A stretch of DNA of 64,000 bases from an uncultured Dehalococcoidia bacterium. GTDB lineage: Bacteria > Chloroflexota > Dehalococcoidia > Lucifugimonadales > UBA3495. Positions within the stretch are counted from its first letter, which is position 1, and every line of letters begins with the position of its first letter. Below the pieces are notes generated by a model, which did no database searches, was not told where the DNA came from, and saw only the letters and a list, made by a program, of their open reading frames with translations. Where the stretch lies: assembly GCA_951813535.1 (NCBI GenBank), contig OX638345.1, positions 1,129,029 through 1,193,028 on the forward strand. Direction: 5' to 3'. Position numbers and translations under genes: made by a program. Shown piece by piece: positions 15,175 to 25,516 of this stretch.

Positions 15175-16026
15175 CTATTCCATCTGAAGGCCCTCGATCA
15201 AATCCCTGATCGTAGTCACATCAGCCGGCGCCCCCGGGATCGTGTGGGCGATCCGACCGGCTTTGTCGATGAAGATGTAAAAGGGCACGCCGGAGACGCC
15301 GTATACGCTCGAGAGTTGCCCGGCCGGGTCATAGGCTATGGGAAAACTCAGGTTCTGCTTGTCGATCAGCGCACGGACCTCGGGCTCGGGGGCGCTGATG
15401 GCGACGCCTACGATGTCGGCGCCGGCGCCGTCGAACTCATCGTGAAAACCCTGTACAGACGGCAACTGCCGTTGGCAATGTGGTCACCAGGGAGCCCAGA
15501 ACATCAACAACGTCGGAGTGCCCACGGTGTCCTCGAGGCGATAGTCGTTGCCATCCATGAAGGTTCCCGCGAACATAGGAGCCGGCGCACGCTGGTCGGC
15601 CCCGGCAGGGGTCGGGGTTGGGGATTCGGCGGTTGTCCTCACCATCTCCGCCGTCGGCGTGATCTCCACGGTTGGCGGCGCTGTGGGCGAGGGTGTGAGT
15701 ATCGCCGCAGTCGTGGCGGCCAGTCGAGGGTTCGACGCCTGGGTTGGATCCGGCGGTGGGCTGGGAGAAGGCGCGTTTGTAGGGACGGCGGCGGGCGCGT
15801 CCGGCTGCGCGGCTACGGAGGTTGGACCGGCACTTTCGGCGGTGGCCTCAGGCTTCCTCTCTTCCAACGAGCGCAGCGCAACCGCCACGGTTGCCTCGAT
15901 GTTGGGCGAATCGGGTTGAGCGCCGCCGTTAGCCGCGTCGTCGGTTTGAAGGCGGCAGCCTGATATGGTCAGGCAAAGGGCTACCACGACGGCGGCGGCC
16001 ATGATTAGCGCGGTGCGCCGAGGCAT
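15175..16026 (-). CDS. TlpA/thioredoxin-like lipoprotein, predicted selenoprotein (in-frame TGA at codon 181)
   Basis: A 283-aa product is predicted if TGA at 15486-15484 is read as selenocysteine. Residues 1-24 are a lipoprotein signal with lipobox ISGC (Cys24). A Pro/Thr/Ala/Ser-rich linker runs to about 145, then a TlpA/AhpC-type thioredoxin domain. The active-site stretch is TLLMFWAPW-[TGA]-PHCQRQLPSVQGF, so TGA sits exactly at the first Cys of the W-C-P-H-C motif. The frame stays open for about 100 further codons with normal features (GVSGVPFYIFIDKAGRI, including the cis-Pro loop). A hairpin follows the TGA (15459-15472). It starts 10 bases after the DUF3179 gene and is co-directional. 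The alternative is a nonsense mutation or sequence error, less likely given the identical situation next door. Confidence 0.85.
15459..15472 (-). promoter_or_regulatory. candidate bacterial SECIS hairpin of the TlpA-like gene
   Basis: In the mRNA, ACGGCAGUUGCCGU begins 11 bases after the UGA. It can form stem ACGG/CCGU with apical loop CAGUUG, putting the loop G about 18 bases from the UGA. That is at the short end of the spacing known for bacterial SECIS elements. Confidence 0.5.
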
Positions 16027-16036
16027 ACCGGGACAC

Positions 16037-17425
16037 TCAGCCGGTGGCTGGATACACGACGGTATCGGGACGATACACCGCCCACGAGAACCAGAGTTGA
16101 CCGATGCGGCCCGGCACCGGGGTCAAATTTGCGCCCTCCAGCGGCCCGCTGACGGCGCGCCCGAATATATCCCACTGGCTGCCGGTCTGCGCGTCCACGA
16201 TGCGGCCGTCCGGGTCCACCGCGAAGGTCAGCGTGTTGTCATCGGGGCCCTGCGGAGAAAATATCCCGGCGGTGCCTACGTCCCGTCCCCTGGCTATCGA
16301 TCCGGAATCCAGCGCGGACGCGGTTCCCGGCGCCCAGAACACCACAATGTCCTCGCCGGCCACGGATGTGGCGACCACGCGTTCCTCGGCCAGCGTGGTG
16401 AAGGATACTGCCCACGCCTCGTTGCCGCGCTCCACGGCCACGACCCGCTCGACAGCCGGCAGCCGGGGATCTTTCTCGCCCCTGAACAGGAACGGATCGC
16501 TCCCGGGCCTATCGTAGCCGGCGTATGGGTTCTCTCCGTATGCGCGGCGCGAGTCAGGCCGTGACAGTACCCGTCCGTCGGGGTGCGCCGCCTTGTAGTC
16601 GGCCCACGACACGATGGACAGGTAAAGCTGCTCCAGTTTGCGGCCGGCGAAGTGCCCGATGACTCCCTCGCCGCCCACTTCCTGCCACCACGTCTCGGTT
16701 TGGCGGTCGTACATCAGCAGGTTGCTGTTGCGCAGTGCGCCGGTGGTCCCGAAGTCGAGGAGCCTTCCGTCAACCGTCCGCCTGTACACGAAGGCGGTAT
16801 TGCAAAGCGGTCAAAACGTGATGACCACCGGTTCCCCGCCGACGGTGTCGTTGACCAGTTCGTGCCAGACCATCACCTGGACCGGATAGGCGCGAACGTC
16901 GCCGTTGAGGTCGACAACCTGCACGGGCTCAAGATCGTCGAGCCAGAAGTCAGCATCCTCAATCGACTCGAACTGCGGGTCGTCGATTGACGGGATACCG
17001 TCCTTGGGCGGCCCGCCGGTCATGATCTCGTCGAAGGAGATTGTCGTCCGCGTGAAGTCCGTGTCCCAGGTCGCTCGAAGGAGACGCTGGTAGCGCGTGC
17101 GTGCTTCTTCGGCTTCGTCTTCGGTGATTGTCTGGACGCGGACCTCGGTAGAGACGGGGAGAGAAGTGGCCGCCGGCAGCGCGGTGGCTGGCGATGCCAG
17201 GGCGGCGGTGGGCAGCGGCGTGGCGGCATCGGCCAATGACGCGGTGGGCAGGTGCGCGGCCGGCTCCAGGGTTGGGAACGCCGCGGTTGTGGGAGCGAGC
17301 GGAGCCGCCCATGGCTCACTGCTGGAGGTATCTTCCGAAGGAGCGCAGGACGCAGCCGTCAGTACCATCAGAAATATGCCGGCCAACGTGAACAGTTGGC
17401 CGGCATATTTCGTTGTCCGTGCCAT
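16037..17425 (-). CDS. DUF3179 lipoprotein, predicted selenoprotein (in-frame TGA at codon 205)
   Basis: A 462-aa product is predicted if TGA at 16813-16811 is read as selenocysteine. Residues 1-27 form a lipoprotein-like signal ending in AASC (Cys27). A Pro/Thr/Ala-rich linker follows to about 105, then a complete DUF3179 domain: VQVMVWHELVNDTVGGEPVV then ITF-[TGA]-PLCNTAFVYRRTVDG and DFGTTGALRNSNLLMYDRQT, ending in LWFSWAVYRPDTVVY. Other DUF3179 proteins have F-C-P-L-C-N here, so TGA replaces the first Cys of CxxC. A hairpin lies downstream (16778-16797). It begins 20 bases after the ABC permease stop without a clear ribosome site, so translational coupling is possible. The gene ends with a normal TGA. 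The biochemical role of DUF3179 is unknown. Confidence 0.88.
16778..16797 (-). promoter_or_regulatory. candidate bacterial SECIS hairpin of the DUF3179 gene
   Basis: In the mRNA the stem CCGCCU/AGGCGG (6 perfect pairs) encloses the 8-base loop UCGUGUAC. The stem begins 13 bases after the UGA and the loop about 20 bases after it, within the accepted bacterial SECIS window. The loop contains the GU typical of SelB-binding loops. Confidence 0.6.
17372..17410 (-). repeat. perfect 16-bp hairpin inside the start of the DUF3179 gene
   Basis: Arms 17372-17387 and 17395-17410 are exact inverted complements with a 7-base loop. The hairpin lies 36 bases after the permease stop and encodes residues 6-18 of the DUF3179 signal peptide. 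A short T-rich stretch follows the 3' arm on the minus strand. It could be the ABC operon terminator, an attenuator, or a translation-blocking structure. Confidence 0.7.
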
Positions 17426-17445: not shown

Positions 17446-18375
17446 TTAGCGTCCGCGCAGTCGCGGGTCCAGAACATCGCGAAGGGCGTCGCCCAGGATG
17501 TTGAAGCCCATCACAACCGCGAAAATCGCCACGCCCGGGAAGATGCCGACCCAGGGAGCGGTCAGCACGTGTTCCTGGGCGGCTCGCGTGAGCATTCCGC
17601 CCCAACTGGGCTGGTCAGGGGGCGCGCCGACTCCAAGGAAGGACAAAGACGCTTCGATGATGATGGCGAAGCCTAGGTAATAGGTGGCCAACACCAGGTA
17701 GATCGCAAAACAGTTCGGGATGATGTGCCGGAACACAATGCGCCACGGCGGCGCCCCGATGGCGGTGGCGGCGGTGACGTAGTCCAGCTCTTTGAGCGAC
17801 AGCACCTGTGATCTCACCGTCCGTATTACGGGGGCGATCATGCCGATGACGATCGCCAGGATGACATTGTTCAGTGACGAACCGAGCACCGCGACGATTG
17901 CCAGCGCGATTATCAGTCCGGGCAAGGCCATGAGCGCGTCAACGACGCGCTGGGCCGCCATGTCGATGATCCCGCCGGCATAAGCCAGGGCCACTCCGAT
18001 GATGAAACTGGCGGTGATCCCGATGAGGACGCTGCCGAGGCCGACGTACAGGCTGATGCGCGCGCCATAGATCAATCTGCTGAGAACGTCGCGTCCCACG
18101 TGGTCGGTGCCCAGCAGGAATTGGGAATTGGGCGGGATGTAAACGGTGGAACCGCCCTCGTGACGGTCGGGTAGTTCCCGAGCGCCATAGGGAGCAAGCA
18201 CCGGCGCCATCAAGGCTACGATCACCAGCACCAGCACCAGGAGGCCGCCGATGGCTCCCAGTGGTTTGCGACGCGTAAAGCGTTTGACTTCCCGGATGCC
18301 GGTTGCGGCCGGCTGGAACATCCCCGCTCTCGGCGGGACGGCTACCTCGGCGCGCTGATTGGTTTGATTCGCCAT
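17446..18375 (-). CDS. peptide/nickel-type ABC transporter permease (DppC/OppC family), operon 1
   Basis: About 309 aa inner-membrane subunit. The N-terminal cytoplasmic tail leads into TM1 (PLGAIGGLLVLVLVIVALMAP). The OppC signature FLLGTDHVGRDVLSRLIYGARISL is present, then the BPD permease domain with a binding loop around DYVTAATAIGAPPWRIVFRHI and a C-terminal SFLGVGAPPDQPSWGGML. It is the third gene of SBP-permease-permease, 64 bases after the DppB gene. I chose ATG 18375 over GTG 18387 because GAGGAG lies upstream. No ATP-binding subunit gene is near, so a shared ATPase elsewhere is required. Confidence 0.93.
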   Translation of the reverse strand: MANQTNQRAEVAVPPRAGMFQPAATGIREVKRFTRRKPLGAIGGLLVLVLVIVALMAPVLAPYGARELPDRHEGGSTVYIPPNSQFLLGTDHVGRDVLSRLIYGARISLYVGLGSVLIGITASFIIGVALAYAGGIIDMAAQRVVDALMALPGLIIALAIVAVLGSSLNNVILAIVIGMIAPVIRTVRSQVLSLKELDYVTAATAIGAPPWRIVFRHIIPNCFAIYLVLATYYLGFAIIIEASLSFLGVGAPPDQPSWGGMLTRAAQEHVLTAPWVGIFPGVAIFAVVMGFNILGDALRDVLDPRLRGR

Positions 18376-18439
18376 GAGTACGAACACTCCTCACGGAACA
18401 CTGGCCAGCGAGCGCAGGATGTTCCGATACACCCGCAAC

Positions 18440-19402
18440 CTACGAGTATCTGATCCTGGGATCCAGTATTCCATAAAGGATGTCGACGACCAGGTTCAAC
18501 AACAGCACCACGGCGGCAGCAAGCAGGACAACACCCTGCACCACGACAAAGTCGCGGTGGATGATGGCGTCGATCAGGTACCGGCCCACACCGGGTATCA
18601 CGAAGACGGATTCGATGATAATGGTGCCGCCCAGCAGCCGGCCGAACTGATAACCGGACACGGTGATGACCGGCAGCAGGGCGTTTTTCAACGCGTGCCG
18701 CCCCACCACCATCCACTCGTTCAGGCCCTTGGACCGGGCGGTTCTCATGTAGTCTTCCCGCATCACTTCCAACATGGCGGAACGGGCCACCCTGGCCGTG
18801 AACGCCATGTCATGGAAGGCGAGGACCAGGGCCGGGAAGATCAATTGCTGCAGGTTGGTGAACGGATCACCCCATAATGTGGCATAGCCCAACGGAGGCA
18901 ACCAACCGGCGAAATAGGTCAATCCATAGATCACCAGTATTCCCAGCCAGAAGGTCGGCAAAGCGATGCCGACCAGGGCCAGAAGCCGGCTGATGTGGTC
19001 CAGGAATGAATCCTGCTTGACCGCGGACAGCACTCCCAAGGGCACGGCGGCGATGAATGCCAGCACAATAGCCAGCATCGCCAGTTCAAGGGTTATGAAA
19101 AACCGGTCTTTCAGGTCATCCAGGATCGGCGTTCCATACCATACTGAATCGCCGAAGTCGCCCTGGAGAATTTTCCAAAGCCAATCGCCATACTGGATGT
19201 ACACCGGGCGGTCAAGGCCCAGTTCTTTCTGAACGCGCTTGATGTCCTCTTCTGTGACCTTGCCGCCGTCACCCTCTTCCCCCGTCAGGATCATCATGGC
19301 AGCGTCCCCTGGCACGATCCAGAAGAGGCCAAACACCAGGATTGTGGTGAGCAGGATAGTGGGTATGAACAGCAGGCCCCTACGGGCTATGTATGCGTAC
19401 AC
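18440..19402 (-). CDS. peptide/nickel-type ABC transporter permease (DppB/OppB family), operon 1
   Basis: 320 aa. TM1 is at the extreme N-terminus (RRGLLFIPTILLTTILVFGL), followed by an extracytoplasmic segment containing the family signature LGLDRPVYIQYGDWLWKILQ and GDFGDSVW. The permease domain has SRLLALVGIALPTFWLGI and the loop YMRTARSKGLNEWMVVGRHA. The C-terminal end DILYGILDPRIRYS is the standard DppB ending. It pairs with the DppC protein to form the channel. It is 85 bases after the binding-protein gene and very similar in plan to 22573-23541. Confidence 0.94.
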   Translation of the reverse strand: MYAYIARRGLLFIPTILLTTILVFGLFWIVPGDAAMMILTGEEGDGGKVTEEDIKRVQKELGLDRPVYIQYGDWLWKILQGDFGDSVWYGTPILDDLKDRFFITLELAMLAIVLAFIAAVPLGVLSAVKQDSFLDHISRLLALVGIALPTFWLGILVIYGLTYFAGWLPPLGYATLWGDPFTNLQQLIFPALVLAFHDMAFTARVARSAMLEVMREDYMRTARSKGLNEWMVVGRHALKNALLPVITVSGYQFGRLLGGTIIIESVFVIPGVGRYLIDAIIHRDFVVVQGVVLLAAAVVLLLNLVVDILYGILDPRIRYS

Positions 19403-19487
19403 CTTCCACCTTCAGTCTGTGAGGCACCGACCGCAAAAGTTTTGAGCGATGCGTCCCAAGTGAAATGGACGCATCGCTCATTGAACT

Positions 19488-21338
19488 CTAGGGTTGATAA
19501 CCCGTTTCGGTGGGTTGCTCACGGTCCGGATCGAACCAGACGTGGTCCCATTTGTGAATCTGCTGGACGGTGGGCGGCAGGTGGAAGTTCCGGATGCGAT
19601 AATCCAGCGCGCCGCCGGCTCCACCCCAGAAATACACCACGAGGTGACTGCTACCGGTGTGCAGGATGCTGGCGATTTCTTCCAGGTGGCCCTGCCGGAC
19701 ACGCTGGTCGATCGCCCGGTTTTGAAGGTCGATCAACTCATCGACCCGGTCGTCCTGCCAGTTTTGCGGATTGCGCAGAACATCCTGCAGGTAGAACTGA
19801 TTGAGAATGTCCGCCGGGTCGGTCAGGATGATGCCAGTGCCGACGGTGGAGATTTCGTGCGTCCCGTCCCGCATCACAGCGTAGGTGGTGGCCAGGTCGT
19901 TGGGTACGATTTCGATGTCGATACCAATGTCTCGCCGCAGCTGCTCTCCGGCGACTTCAGCCGCCGGCAGAGTGGGGATGGCGTTCCGAGTGTTCATCTT
20001 GACCGAAAGACCATCGGGGTAGCCGGCTTCGGCGAGCAACTGCTTGGCTTCTGCGATCGCGGCGGTACGGTCTTCGGCGAACGCGGGGTTGTTGGCGCGC
20101 AGATCGGCCAGATCCTCGACCACCCCTGGTGAGAAGAAAGTGCCGGGTTGACCGAACCCCCTGACCGCGCGCTCGATGCCCAGATCGCGGTCCAGACCCA
20201 GGTAGAACGCCCGCCGTACCCTCTCGTCGTCGAACGGGGGTTTGGCGTTATTGAGGAAGTACGCCTCGAAACCGGCGCTGGGAAGGATCAGGGCACGCAC
20301 CTGGCCGTCGGTTTCCTCCTCCAGTACCGCCATTGCTTCGGGTCGGTTCACGCCGGTAAAGGGATTGAAGGTTCCCAGTACCTGGCCGGCCTGCAGAGCG
20401 GCAATACGGCGGGCGGTATCCGGGATGAGGTGCACGATGATGCCATCAAAGAACGGGCGACCTTCCTTGAAATACGTGGTATTTCGCTCAAAGGTGTAGC
20501 TTACGTCCTTCTGCCAGCCGCCCAGGAGCCAGGGTCCGGAACCGATCAGGTTTTCCGGCTGGTTGGCTTCCTCCTGCGTCAGATCCTCGGCGATGTGTTT
20601 CGGGTACATCTTCATGTAGTCCGATGCGAGGTTCGGCATGAAGGTGGGCGCCTGGTACTTCAGGGGCACGCGCACGGTCTGGGTGTCAATTACCTCGGCG
20701 GTCTGATGCTCATAGAACGCACGGAGGAAACCGGTGCGCGCCCGCTGGGCTCCCGGCAAGGTGATGCGGTCCAGGCTGAAGACCACGTCTTCCGCCGTGA
20801 CCGGCGCGCCGTCCGACCAGGTGGCGTCCTTCAGGTGAAAGACGTACTCGGTGCCGTCGTCGCTCACTTCCCACGTCGAGGCCAGGTCGCCGATGATTTC
20901 GCTGGGCTTGACGGGGTTATATTCGACCAGCTGATTGAACCGTGGGCTTGAGGGCATCAGCGTGGTGTTGAGGGAGCCCCCGTAATGGACGTCCCAGAAC
21001 CCCGGGTTGCTGTTGCCAACCATGGGGAACGTGCCCCGGTAATGCTTGCCTTCGCCTTCCTGCCACCAGTCCGGGCGTTCGTCTATGGATACCGGTGTCG
21101 GCACCGGTATAGCGGTGGGCGTCGCGTCGAGAACCCGCGTCGGCATGGGCGTGAACGTGGGTGTAGGGGCTGCCTCGGCAGAGCTACCGGACGCCGCCGG
21201 TTGGGACTGCTGAGCCTGGCTTGGCGCGGTGCTGGGCTCGGGGGTAGTGGTTCCGCCACAGGCCAGCCCGACTACCAACAGGGCTGCGCAGCTCACAAGC
21301 AACAACCATTGGGGTCTCCCGATTCGTCGGAACTTCAT
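19488..21338 (-). CDS. peptide-type ABC transporter substrate-binding lipoprotein (SBP family 5), operon 1
   Basis: 616 aa. A lipoprotein signal ends in GLAC (Cys27), then a Ser/Gln/Pro/Thr-rich linker to about 90 and an SBP_bac_5 domain: WEVSDDGTEYVFHLKDATWS, SDGAPVTAEDVVFSLDRIT and the later RRAFYLGLDRDLGIERAV. It binds peptides or related ligands outside the membrane for the two permeases downstream. GGGAGGG before ATG 21338 decides the start over an ATG 21 bases upstream. It is strongly similar along its length to 23603-25516 (for example PGFWDVHYG, PRFNQLVEYNPV and NLASDYMKMYP), so the two operons are duplicates. The promoter is at 21439-21467. Confidence 0.94.
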   Translation of the reverse strand: MKFRRIGRPQWLLLVSCAALLVVGLACGGTTTPEPSTAPSQAQQSQPAASGSSAEAAPTPTFTPMPTRVLDATPTAIPVPTPVSIDERPDWWQEGEGKHYRGTFPMVGNSNPGFWDVHYGGSLNTTLMPSSPRFNQLVEYNPVKPSEIIGDLASTWEVSDDGTEYVFHLKDATWSDGAPVTAEDVVFSLDRITLPGAQRARTGFLRAFYEHQTAEVIDTQTVRVPLKYQAPTFMPNLASDYMKMYPKHIAEDLTQEEANQPENLIGSGPWLLGGWQKDVSYTFERNTTYFKEGRPFFDGIIVHLIPDTARRIAALQAGQVLGTFNPFTGVNRPEAMAVLEEETDGQVRALILPSAGFEAYFLNNAKPPFDDERVRRAFYLGLDRDLGIERAVRGFGQPGTFFSPGVVEDLADLRANNPAFAEDRTAAIAEAKQLLAEAGYPDGLSVKMNTRNAIPTLPAAEVAGEQLRRDIGIDIEIVPNDLATTYAVMRDGTHEISTVGTGIILTDPADILNQFYLQDVLRNPQNWQDDRVDELIDLQNRAIDQRVRQGHLEEIASILHTGSSHLVVYFWGGAGGALDYRIRNFHLPPTVQQIHKWDHVWFDPDREQPTETGYQP

Positions 21339-21438
21339 TGGCGAACCCTCCCGTTTCACATCATTTGAACGCAGGTGAACGGACGACCGTCAGCCGTCCT
21401 GACGATGCTGGCCGCGCTGGGGTGGCCAGTGTGGGGGG

Positions 21439-21467
21439 ATGCTACTCACAAGGTTGCCGCTTGTCAA
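21439..21467 (-). promoter_or_regulatory. sigma70-type promoter of ABC operon 1
   Basis: On the minus strand, consensus TTGACA (21467-21462), a 17-base spacer and TAGCAT (21444-21439). The start codon is about 100 bases downstream. Confidence 0.7.
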
Positions 21468-21558
21468 TTGGTTATTGTCCATATCTTGGCGGCGCAAACA
21501 GCGGTGGCGAGGGCTCCTTAATCGGCCACATCATCGTATCGATGAGCGACCAAGAAAT

Positions 21559-21591
21559 GCCGCCCGGACGCAAGATAAGCGTCCGGGCGGC
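21559..21591 (-). terminator. terminator of ABC operon 2
   Basis: A perfect 13-bp stem (gccgcccggacgc / gcgtccgggcggc) with a 7-base loop lies 44 bases after the last gene of operon 2, just upstream of the operon 1 promoter. No long T-run follows. Confidence 0.7.
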
Positions 21592-21634
21592 TGACTGTAG
21601 GCGTTGACGAAATTGTGGAATGTTCAGCGTGCGA

Positions 21635-22546
21635 CTACCGCCCGCGCAGCCTCGGGTCGAGCACATCGCGCAGGGCGTCGCCCAGGACGTTGAAGGCCAG
21701 CACGGCGATGAAGATGAAGATGCCGGGGAACACCAGCAGCCAGATGCCCGTCTCCGGCGCTTCCCGGCTGGCCACGGTCAGGATGCCGCCCCAGCTGGGT
21801 TCGTCGGGAGGAGCGCCCACGCCGAGGAAGCTCAGCGACGCCTCGATGATGATGGCGAACCCAAGGTAGTAGGTCGCCATGATGATGTAGATGGCGAGGC
21901 AGTTGGGCATGATGTGCCGGAACACAATGCGCTGGGGACGCGCGCCGATGGCTCGTGCGGCGGTCACGTAGTCCATTTCCTTGAGCGTGAGCACCTGGGA
22001 ACGGACGGTGCGAATCACGGGGGCGAGCATACCGATGACGATGGCCAGGATGACGTTGTTCAGAGAGGAGCCTAGGACCGCCATGATGGACAGGGCCAGG
22101 ATCAGGCCGGGTATGGACATCAGGGCATCCACCACCCGCTGGAAAGCGAGGTCAACGAAGCCGCCCGCGTAGGTGCTGGTGATGCCCAGCACGAAGCCCG
22201 CGGTTATCCCGATCAGGACGCTGCCCAGGCCGACATACAGGGATATCCAGGTGCCGTACAGGACGCGCGACAGAATGTCCCTTCCGATGACGTCCGTCCC
22301 CATGGGGTATTCCGGGCTGGGAGCGAGGAATATGTCGCCGACGGAGGCGTATGGGTCCGGGACCGGCAGGATGGCCAACCGGGATGCAATGGCGACAAAA
22401 ATGAGGATGAGGGCGGTGGCGCCGCCGACCGCGCCGAGGGGTTTCCGGCGAACGAGGTCCACGGTGGACCGGTACGCAGCGGGGATACCCAACAACGCAT
22501 TGCGAACCTGGGAGCCGCCCTCTGCGGTGATGTCGCGAGTAGCCAT
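21635..22546 (-). CDS. peptide/nickel-type ABC transporter permease (DppC/OppC family), operon 2
   Basis: 303 aa. It has the same plan as 17446-18375: TM1 in GAVGGATALILIFVAIASRL, the signature YPMGTDVIGRDILSRVLYGT, the permease loop DYVTAARAIGARPQRIVFRH and the ending DALRDVLDPRLRGR, identical to the operon 1 copy. It forms the transmembrane channel with the DppB protein encoded 26 bases upstream. The long stretches of identity with the operon 1 permease (for example LGSSLNNVILAIVIGM) indicate recent duplication. No ATPase gene follows; the operon ends at the hairpin 21559-21591. Confidence 0.94.
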   Translation of the reverse strand: MATRDITAEGGSQVRNALLGIPAAYRSTVDLVRRKPLGAVGGATALILIFVAIASRLAILPVPDPYASVGDIFLAPSPEYPMGTDVIGRDILSRVLYGTWISLYVGLGSVLIGITAGFVLGITSTYAGGFVDLAFQRVVDALMSIPGLILALSIMAVLGSSLNNVILAIVIGMLAPVIRTVRSQVLTLKEMDYVTAARAIGARPQRIVFRHIMPNCLAIYIIMATYYLGFAIIIEASLSFLGVGAPPDEPSWGGILTVASREAPETGIWLLVFPGIFIFIAVLAFNVLGDALRDVLDPRLRGR

Positions 22547-22572
22547 GGTCTGCTCCGTTGATATGCGGTGCG

Positions 22573-23541
22573 CTACTGATAGCGGATTCTCGGGTCGAGC
22601 ACTCCGTAGATAAGGTCGATAACCAGGTTCAGGAACATGACCACCGCCGCCACCAGCACCACGACCGCCTGGATCACTACGAAATCACGGTGGATGATTG
22701 CGTCGATCAGCATGTTCCCGATGCCGGGGACGAGGAAGATCACCTCGACGATCACGACGCCGCCCAAGAGCCGGCCGAACTGGTAACCTGACACCGTGAT
22801 GATGGGCAACAGGGCGTTTTTCAGGGCGTGTCGACCGATTACGCCCATCTCCGTGAGTCCTTTGGCCCGAGCCGTGCGGACGTAGTCGTCCCGCATCGTT
22901 TCCAGCATGGACGAGCGGGTGACCCGTGCGGTGAACGCAAGATCATGGAACGCGATGGCCAGCGCCGGGAAAATCATCTGCTGCAGGTTCGTTAGCGGCT
23001 GCTCCCACAGGTTGGCGTAGTCCAGCGGCGGCAGCCAGTCGAATACGTAGGCCAGCACGTACGTTACGACGATCGCGATGAGGAAGGTCGGCATGGCGAT
23101 GCCCAGGAGGGCAAACAGCCGGCTCATGTAGTCCAGTTTGGTGTCCTGCTTGACCGCGGATACGATACCTAGCGGAACCGCGACGATGAAGGCCAGCCCC
23201 ATGCCCATCACCGCCAGTTGCACGGTGGTGATGAACCGTCCTCCAAGCTCGTCGATCACCGGAGTCTGGTACCAGAGCGACTCGCCCAGGTCGCCGCGGA
23301 GCATGTCCCACAGCCAGTCGCCGTACTGGATGTGGACAGGCCGGTCCAGTCCCAGCTTGGCGCGCAGCCGTTCGACGTCCTCCAGGCTGACCCGCCCGCC
23401 CTCATTCGGGTCGTTACCCGTGAGGATGAGCATGGCCGTGTCGCCGGGCACGATCCACATCAGCAGGAAGATGATGATGGTCACTATGAGGATGGTGGGT
23501 ATGAAGAGGAGCAGCCTCCTCACGATATAAGTGGTCATCAT
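22573..23541 (-). CDS. peptide/nickel-type ABC transporter permease (DppB/OppB family), operon 2
   Basis: 322 aa. N-terminal TM (RRLLLFIPTILIVTIIIFLL), then LGLDRPVHIQYGDWLWDMLR and GDLGESLWYQTPVID, then the permease domain (SRLFALLGIAMPTFLIAI; DYVRTARAKGLTEMGVIGRH) and the ending DLIYGVLDPRIRYQ. It is colinear with 18440-19402 throughout. It lies 61 bases downstream of the binding-protein gene and 26 bases upstream of the DppC gene, so it is the middle gene of the operon. Confidence 0.94.
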   Translation of the reverse strand: MMTTYIVRRLLLFIPTILIVTIIIFLLMWIVPGDTAMLILTGNDPNEGGRVSLEDVERLRAKLGLDRPVHIQYGDWLWDMLRGDLGESLWYQTPVIDELGGRFITTVQLAVMGMGLAFIVAVPLGIVSAVKQDTKLDYMSRLFALLGIAMPTFLIAIVVTYVLAYVFDWLPPLDYANLWEQPLTNLQQMIFPALAIAFHDLAFTARVTRSSMLETMRDDYVRTARAKGLTEMGVIGRHALKNALLPIITVSGYQFGRLLGGVVIVEVIFLVPGIGNMLIDAIIHRDFVVIQAVVVLVAAVVMFLNLVIDLIYGVLDPRIRYQ

Positions 23542-23602
23542 TCCTCCCGGGATCGGGCCTGGCGAACGTCGAAATCGTCTCTAGACATCGAGGCGCACGA
23601 GC

Positions 23603-25516
23603 CTACGGCTGGTATCCCGTCCCGATCGGCGGCTTCTCGGCATCCTCGTCCCACCACATGTGGTCCAGCTTGTGGATCATCTGAATGGTCCTCGGGACGT
23701 GGTAGTTCCGCACGCGGTAGTCCAGGGTCCCACCGGCGTGCATCCAACCCGTGGGCAGGTAGTGGGGCACCTCGTCGCGCAACAATTCGACCATCTGGGC
23801 AAAGAGTTCCTTGCGCTTTTCGGGATCAAGTTCCTTGGCCTGCTCGGTCTTGAGCCTCTCAAACTCGGTGGTGGTCCAGTTGCCCGAGTTGCGCATGGTG
23901 TCAATGCCGTACCACTGGTTCAGGATGTCGGACGGGTCCGGGAGGATGATGCCGCTACCGCAGCCGACGATGACCCCGTAGTCGTTGCTGCGCCACTTGG
24001 CGTACAGGGTCGCGACGTCGCTGGACTGGATCGTCATGTCCAGGTTGAGCTCGCGCTTCCAGATGTCTTTGACCAGCTGGGCGGAGGTGGCAGTGCAGCC
24101 CGTCAGGATGGAGGTGATGGTTCCGCTGAAGCCGTCAGGGTAGCCGGCTTCGGCAAGCAACCTGCGAGCCTCGTCCAGGTCCGCCTGGGCCTTGGCGCCG
24201 TCCGCGTCCCGGCGGTAACCGGGCAGCTCGTACAGCGCTTCGACGCTTTCGTTGGGGGCGAACCCGACGTGGAAGTGGGTCCCCACGGTGCCGTTGCCGC
24301 GGAGGATCTTCTCGACGATTTCCTCCTGGTCGATCACCATCCAGAGAGCGGTCCGCACCCGGGGGTCGTCGTATGGTTCGACCAGCCAGTTGAAGTTGAG
24401 GCCGGCGCGCTGCACGTTTTGCATGAACAGGGCGCGCATGCGTCCGTCAGTGTCCTCCTCCAGTTGCTCGACGAATTCGGTGTAGGTGGACAGCACCGGG
24501 TAGTAGGTTCCGTCGGCCTGCCCGACCTTGAGGGTGGCGATGGCCCGGGCCACGTCCTGGATCAGGAAGACCTTGAACCCGTCAAAGTAGGGACGCGGAG
24601 CCTTGAAGTAGTCGTCGTTGCGGACGTACTCATAGGCCTCCTGCTTCTGCCAGCTGCCATCCTTGAAGATGAAGGGGCCGGAGCCGATCATGTTCTCCGG
24701 GCAACAGTTGGCGTCTTCCTGGGTCAGTTTGCCGACCACGTGCTCCGGGTACATCTTCATGTAGTCGGAGGCGAGGTTGACCATGAAGGTGGCCGCGGGG
24801 AACTTGATGGGCATCCGCACCGTCCGCTCGTCGATCACCTCGGCCGTCTTGTGCTCGTAGAAATTGCGCATGCTGTTGGTGCGGCCGCGGAATGCGTCAG
24901 GAAGGGTGATGCGATCCAGGCTGTAGACGATGTCACTGGCCTTAACCGGCTGGCCGTCGGACCAGTTCGCTTCGGCAAGGTAGAAGGTGTACACCGTGCC
25001 GTCCTCGCTGACGTCCCAACTCTCGGCCAAGTCTCCGATGATCTCCTCCGGGTTGACCGGGTTGTACTCAACCAGTTGGTTGAACCGGGGGCCGGAGGGT
25101 GTGAGGGTGGTGGTCAGGCTGGCGCCGTAGTGCACGTCCCAGAAGCCGGGGTTATTCCGGGCCACCCACTTCATGGTCCGACCATGCTTGCCACGGGTGA
25201 CCCAGTCGGTTTCAGGGGCCTGGACCTCCACCGGCTGGACCGTGGGCGTGGGATCCGCGGCGGCCGCGGAGCTGCCGGACGATGCGGCCGGCTGGGCCGG
25301 CGCGGCGGCGGCGGTGGGTTGAGCCGCCTGGGACGAACTGCCGGAAGGCGCGGCGGTGGGCACGGCTTGCGCGCCTGCGGCCGCGCTGGCCGGAGCCGAC
25401 GAGGCATCCGATTCCGGAGCGGTTGCCGCTCCACCGCAGGCGATCACGAATATCAGTGTTAGCGAGATTGTGATCAGAATCAGGGCGCTCGGGGTCGTTT
25501 TGCGGCGTCTTGTCAT
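23603..25516 (-). CDS. peptide-type ABC transporter substrate-binding lipoprotein (SBP family 5), operon 2
   Basis: 637 aa. Signal peptide with Cys27 (FVIAC), a long Ala/Ser/Pro/Thr linker, then SBP_bac_5: RFNQLVEYNPVNPEEIIGDL, WSDGQPVKASDIVYSLDRIT, NLASDYMKMYPEHV. The C-terminal lobe includes LAEAGYPDGFSGTIT. It has a Cys pair (DANCC) in the ligand domain that the operon 1 paralogue replaces with NQ. GGAGG sits upstream of the ATG. It is transcribed from a promoter at 25613-25641 with about 95 bases of leader. The ligand is inferred only as a peptide or similar oligomer. Confidence 0.94.
   Translation of the reverse strand: MTRRRKTTPSALILITISLTLIFVIACGGAATAPESDASSAPASAAAGAQAVPTAAPSGSSSQAAQPTAAAAPAQPAASSGSSAAAADPTPTVQPVEVQAPETDWVTRGKHGRTMKWVARNNPGFWDVHYGASLTTTLTPSGPRFNQLVEYNPVNPEEIIGDLAESWDVSEDGTVYTFYLAEANWSDGQPVKASDIVYSLDRITLPDAFRGRTNSMRNFYEHKTAEVIDERTVRMPIKFPAATFMVNLASDYMKMYPEHVVGKLTQEDANCCPENMIGSGPFIFKDGSWQKQEAYEYVRNDDYFKAPRPYFDGFKVFLIQDVARAIATLKVGQADGTYYPVLSTYTEFVEQLEEDTDGRMRALFMQNVQRAGLNFNWLVEPYDDPRVRTALWMVIDQEEIVEKILRGNGTVGTHFHVGFAPNESVEALYELPGYRRDADGAKAQADLDEARRLLAEAGYPDGFSGTITSILTGCTATSAQLVKDIWKRELNLDMTIQSSDVATLYAKWRSNDYGVIVGCGSGIILPDPSDILNQWYGIDTMRNSGNWTTTEFERLKTEQAKELDPEKRKELFAQMVELLRDEVPHYLPTGWMHAGGTLDYRVRNYHVPRTIQMIHKLDHMWWDEDAEKPPIGTGYQP

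Follow-up and report, generated by a model that had tools for sequence, protein, structure and literature searches.

The window analysed here is a stretch of 64,000 nucleotides from a marine SAR202 bacterium, on whose minus strand a single frame running from 16026 to 15175 encodes 283 residues and ends in a TAG, when its sole TGA (15486-15484) is read as selenocysteine (Sec, U) at residue 181. Under the standard code this lipoprotein frame is split into two ORFs, one of 180 aa (16026-15484) and another of 96 aa (15465-15175), and the selenoprotein gene would be misannotated as two fragments. Translation thus confirmed what an earlier note on this DNA had claimed, namely that the frame is broken by this TGA alone and that gene callers would report a truncated lipoprotein and a headless thioredoxin. 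The encoded protein starts with a predicted lipoprotein signal peptide carrying a lipobox-like ISGC, assigned by eye (15955-16026), which is followed by a low-complexity linker rich in Ser, Pro, Thr and Ala and by a thioredoxin-fold domain (15178-15609 as modelled). The TGA falls in the active-site motif FWAPW-U-PHCQRQLP, at the position of the nucleophile in the ResA/TlpA-type thioredoxin motif, and the Pfam AhpC-TSA profile spans it unbroken (residues 148-261, 3.1e-23).

The upstream gene on the same strand (16037-17425), which ends 10 bases before the Sec lipoprotein gene and likely belongs to the same transcript, encodes a DUF3179 lipoprotein that also contains an in-frame TGA (16813-16811, TF-U-PLC), with a CCGCC/GGCGG hairpin downstream. 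DUF3179 genes with one TGA are common across the genus and the order. The host has a second one (G000:C1:4071638-4072561; VY-U-TLCG) and a third DUF3179 copy (C1:3148724) that contains no TGA. The adjacent arrangement of DUF3179 and TlpA genes was seen in the host and in one other genome (G001) only, and the two genes lie far apart in G003, for example; the pairing was accordingly rejected as a general rule for the genus. Directly upstream, at 17446-21359 on the minus strand, profiles identified genes for an oligopeptide-type ABC transporter (SBP_bac_5 and two permeases), whose synteny is kept in a congener, the SAR202 bin87, and the block is syntenic with that genome at about 80-86% DNA identity. 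Two such transporter sets, each with SBP_bac_5 and two permeases and similar to each other, follow one another at 17446-25516 (minus strand), likely as the result of a duplication.

The conservation of the TGA was examined in 99 relatives. In each of the 14 genomes sampled from the genus, one or more close homologues had a single TGA, and in the 21 distinct loci read it was always at the same residue, as U in WAPW-U-xxC or FAPW-U-xxC, so a chance TGA is excluded. As expected of a bacterial selenoprotein, the in-frame UGA aligns with the conserved Cys of homologues, those read outside the genus having Cys at the Sec position. Compared with the congener, dN was 0.045 and dS 0.30 for the stretch of the domain before the TGA, and 0.11 and 0.62 after it, showing purifying selection on both sides. 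This congener is an independent metagenome-assembled genome (MAG) with 331x coverage, whose source was the sponge Aplysina aerophoba (PMC5649159). A pseudogene or a sequencing error, in which a Cys codon TGC or TGT had mutated or been miscalled to TGA, would require a change of one base; set against it are the same TGA in 21 loci from 14 genomes, the selection downstream of it, a frame otherwise undamaged and the conserved hairpin described below, and we rejected it as having a negligible probability.

Wider searches covered two overlapping samples, with 250 genomes from the order and 393 from the class, and showed a sharp gap in scores, with 156-228 bits for the complete Sec copies of the genus and at most 106 bits for all other matches; a fragment of a Sec copy at a contig end in G005 scored 102 bits. 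Among the matches listed from outside the genus none had a stop codon, and the searched genomes of the order and class revealed no close TGA-bearing relative beyond the genus. A maximum-likelihood tree grouped 20 Sec sequences of the genus together (support 95/77). One TGA-bearing match outside it (G063, C1:1483727-1484035) was discarded as being of a different type, with the motif WASW-U-GC and a place on the tree apart from the genus sequences; this TlpA-like protein resembles known UGC-type TlpA selenoproteins. The host itself encodes a second Sec-containing ResA-like lipoprotein (C1:2632862-2633275), which is followed by a methyltransferase-like ORF and whose flanks, as far as they were read, lack a DUF3179 gene, and also a distant Cys paralogue. 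In another genome (G008, contig C144) two Sec ResA-like genes are found in tandem, with the altered motifs U-GYC and U-ERC.

Downstream of the UGA, at 15472-15459 (minus strand), a SECIS-like hairpin can be formed (ACGGC-AGUU-GCCGU), with five base pairs, the loop AGUU and a G at the second position of the loop, at +18 after the UGA, as the earlier note had proposed. The published bacterial SECIS model calls for a loop of 3-9 nt, a stem of 4-16 bp, a G in the first two positions of the loop, a distance of 16-37 nt from the UGA and a folding energy of -7.5 or lower (PMC13188914). The hairpin of the window agrees with this model, in that 16 nt separate the UGA from its apical loop, the minimum of the model, and the 36 nt after the UGA fold with an energy of -10.7 (-6.7 for the 14-nt core alone). 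Taken by itself it has weak significance, its energy being reached by a fraction of 0.054 of the shuffles, and the per-sequence z-scores of energy for the 36-nt stretch are also weak (mean -0.88) because the encoded motif itself favours a stem. The constraint on the hairpin is carried by the position-constrained shuffle test and by covariation. Over the 21 loci the best qualifying hairpin averaged -9.9 kcal/mol, a value never attained in 500 synonymous shuffles, whose mean was -3.65 (s.d. 0.77), in statistics that compare related sequences and leave their kinship uncorrected; the best hairpin of the Cys homologues averaged -3.6. In the larger subgroup, made of 16 sequences with the loop AGUUG, changes on both sides were found in three of seven pairs, one of which occurs as GC, AU, CG and UA, and the covariation was 0.258, against 0.080 when shuffled (0/500) and at most 0.108 when slid. 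The subgroup of the window keeps the hairpin with its register shifted by one base. One locus of the 21, the second site of the tandem pair, had no qualifying hairpin, two more had one that is weak by the strict measure, and an Rfam search of the 64-kb window gave no match.

The host genome, a single contig of 4.38 Mb and 99.8% complete, contains the complete set of Sec genes (selC, SelA, SelB and SelD) expected of a bacterium that makes selenoproteins. The tRNA-Sec, with anticodon TCA (UCA in the RNA), scored 66.4 bits, and SelB (354.8 bits), SelA (542 bits) and SelD (370 bits) were each above the curated cut-off. These calls are specific, since few matches over the cut-offs were found in 14 control genomes (two for selB, one for selA, two for selD and five for tRNA-Sec). 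The SelD gene of the host has its own in-frame TGA at the Sec/Cys site (LSHCAG-U-AAK). Reading of the TGA as some other amino acid, through a change in the genetic code or suppression, would also fit a lone in-frame TGA, as under translation table 4. This was rejected as very improbable, given that in unrelated families (TlpA and DUF3179) and in SelD the TGA coincides exactly with the column of the catalytic Cys, that the tRNA-Sec, SelA, SelB and SelD are present, and that ordinary genes of the host stop at TGA, as DUF3179 does at 16039-16037.

The TGA almost certainly encodes Sec at the reactive position, and the selenoprotein reading of the earlier note is favoured by the Sec machinery, by the conserved TGA with conservation of the protein continuing downstream, and by the covarying hairpin. 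We are highly confident that the gene encodes an extracytoplasmic, lipid-anchored thiol-disulfide oxidoreductase of the ResA/TlpA-type thioredoxin fold, with Sec as the attacking residue (UPHC); the incorporation of Sec and the secretion and activity of the protein are what we infer from these data. In the proposed mechanism, the UGA would be decoded by SelB and Sec-tRNA(UCA), steered by the hairpin just downstream, and the mature domain would act on partners outside the membrane by exchanging selenenylsulfide and disulfide bonds, with Sec and the resolving Cys, three residues further along, forming the Se-S bond. Bacteria normally decode UGA only in part, and this would suit a gene with two products, a UGA-terminated lipoprotein regulated by selenium supply together with the full selenoprotein. 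The shorter product would keep its lipid anchor and linker, but it would lose the active site along with most of the fold and shows no sign of function, and we consider such a dual output unlikely.

The AlphaFold model of the thioredoxin-fold domain, built from a three-sequence alignment, had a pLDDT of 72 and a pTM of 0.65, and ResA was the nearest solved relative both by profile and by this model (TM about 0.8). In this model the first active-site helix has Sec at its N-end, and an invariant Pro stands before a late strand, the usual position of the cis-Pro, in agreement with a ResA/TlpA-type thioredoxin fold having UxxC in the place of CxxC. The best match by structure was 3c71, a variant of ResA whose motif is a DsbA-like CPHC, the Cys version of UPHC. 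Because of this ResA-like fold, the placement of Sec and cis-Pro and the CPHC match, the predicted chemistry is very likely an extracytoplasmic exchange between thiol/selenol and disulfide. The extracytoplasmic Sec thiol oxidoreductase of the earlier note is supported to that extent, and it may act as an oxidase or as a reductase. A DsbA-like oxidase would be in line with the dipeptide PH, which is that of DsbA, and with the match to 3c71. Redox potentials tend to be lower with Sec, and a family search of the host genome gave no match to DsbB or VKOR for reoxidation, nor to DsbD/CcdA for the reductive route. We regard an oxidase as somewhat less probable than a ResA-like reductase. The host encodes several extracytoplasmic thioredoxin-fold proteins despite the lack of matches to these families.

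As a guess, the ResA-like protein might act jointly with the co-encoded Sec DUF3179 lipoprotein. The two adjacent genes, both with UxxC, could encode a dedicated pair of lipid-anchored selenoproteins exchanging electrons outside the membrane in a host without recognisable DsbB, VKOR or CcdA/DsbD, a proposal that we regard as rather doubtful and that, if true, would provide a first function for DUF3179. The neighbour is in any case a lead on this domain of unknown function. With these data a SAR202 genus that has a sponge-derived MAG among its members gains a genus-wide, duplicated lineage of extracytoplasmic selenoproteins, which points to selenium use in the redox chemistry of its cell envelope; in the literature searched we found no paper joining "SAR202" and "selenoprotein".

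Compared with known systems, the protein shares with B. subtilis ResA (PDB 1st9; CPHC variant 3c71) and other ResA/TlpA-like proteins the modelled fold, the membrane-anchored extracytoplasmic location predicted here, and the positions of the cis-Pro and of the motif, and differs from them in Sec instead of the first Cys, the PH dipeptide and the long Ser/Pro/Thr linker. No named subfamily is claimed, since the NCBIfam models for ResA (81, cut-off 170), StoA, DsbE and TlpA all scored below their curated cut-offs. The UGC-containing TlpA proteins (NF041054, WAxxUGC) also have a ResA-like domain with Sec in the equivalent position, but their motif is UGC and not UPHC, and the score of 56.5 bits against a cut-off of 300 places our protein outside that family. 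By domain and motif it is comparable to the UxxC selenoproteins of the Prx-like thiol:disulfide oxidoreductase (PF00578), Redoxin (PF08534) and Trx-like 1 (COG0526) types, reported from the Global Ocean Sampling (PMC2398784) and abundant in marine metagenomes (PMC2398784, PMC9312934, PMC13188914), whereas the clade described here is restricted to a genus. Reviews list these types along with the DUF3179 selenoproteins (PF11376, UxxC/T) (PMC9312934, PMC13188914), the latter being the family of the upstream neighbour and not of the ResA-like gene. Since UxxC selenoproteins of the Redoxin/AhpC-TSA fold and the DUF3179 UxxC/T proteins were already catalogued, what is new here is a genus-restricted branch and not a new type.
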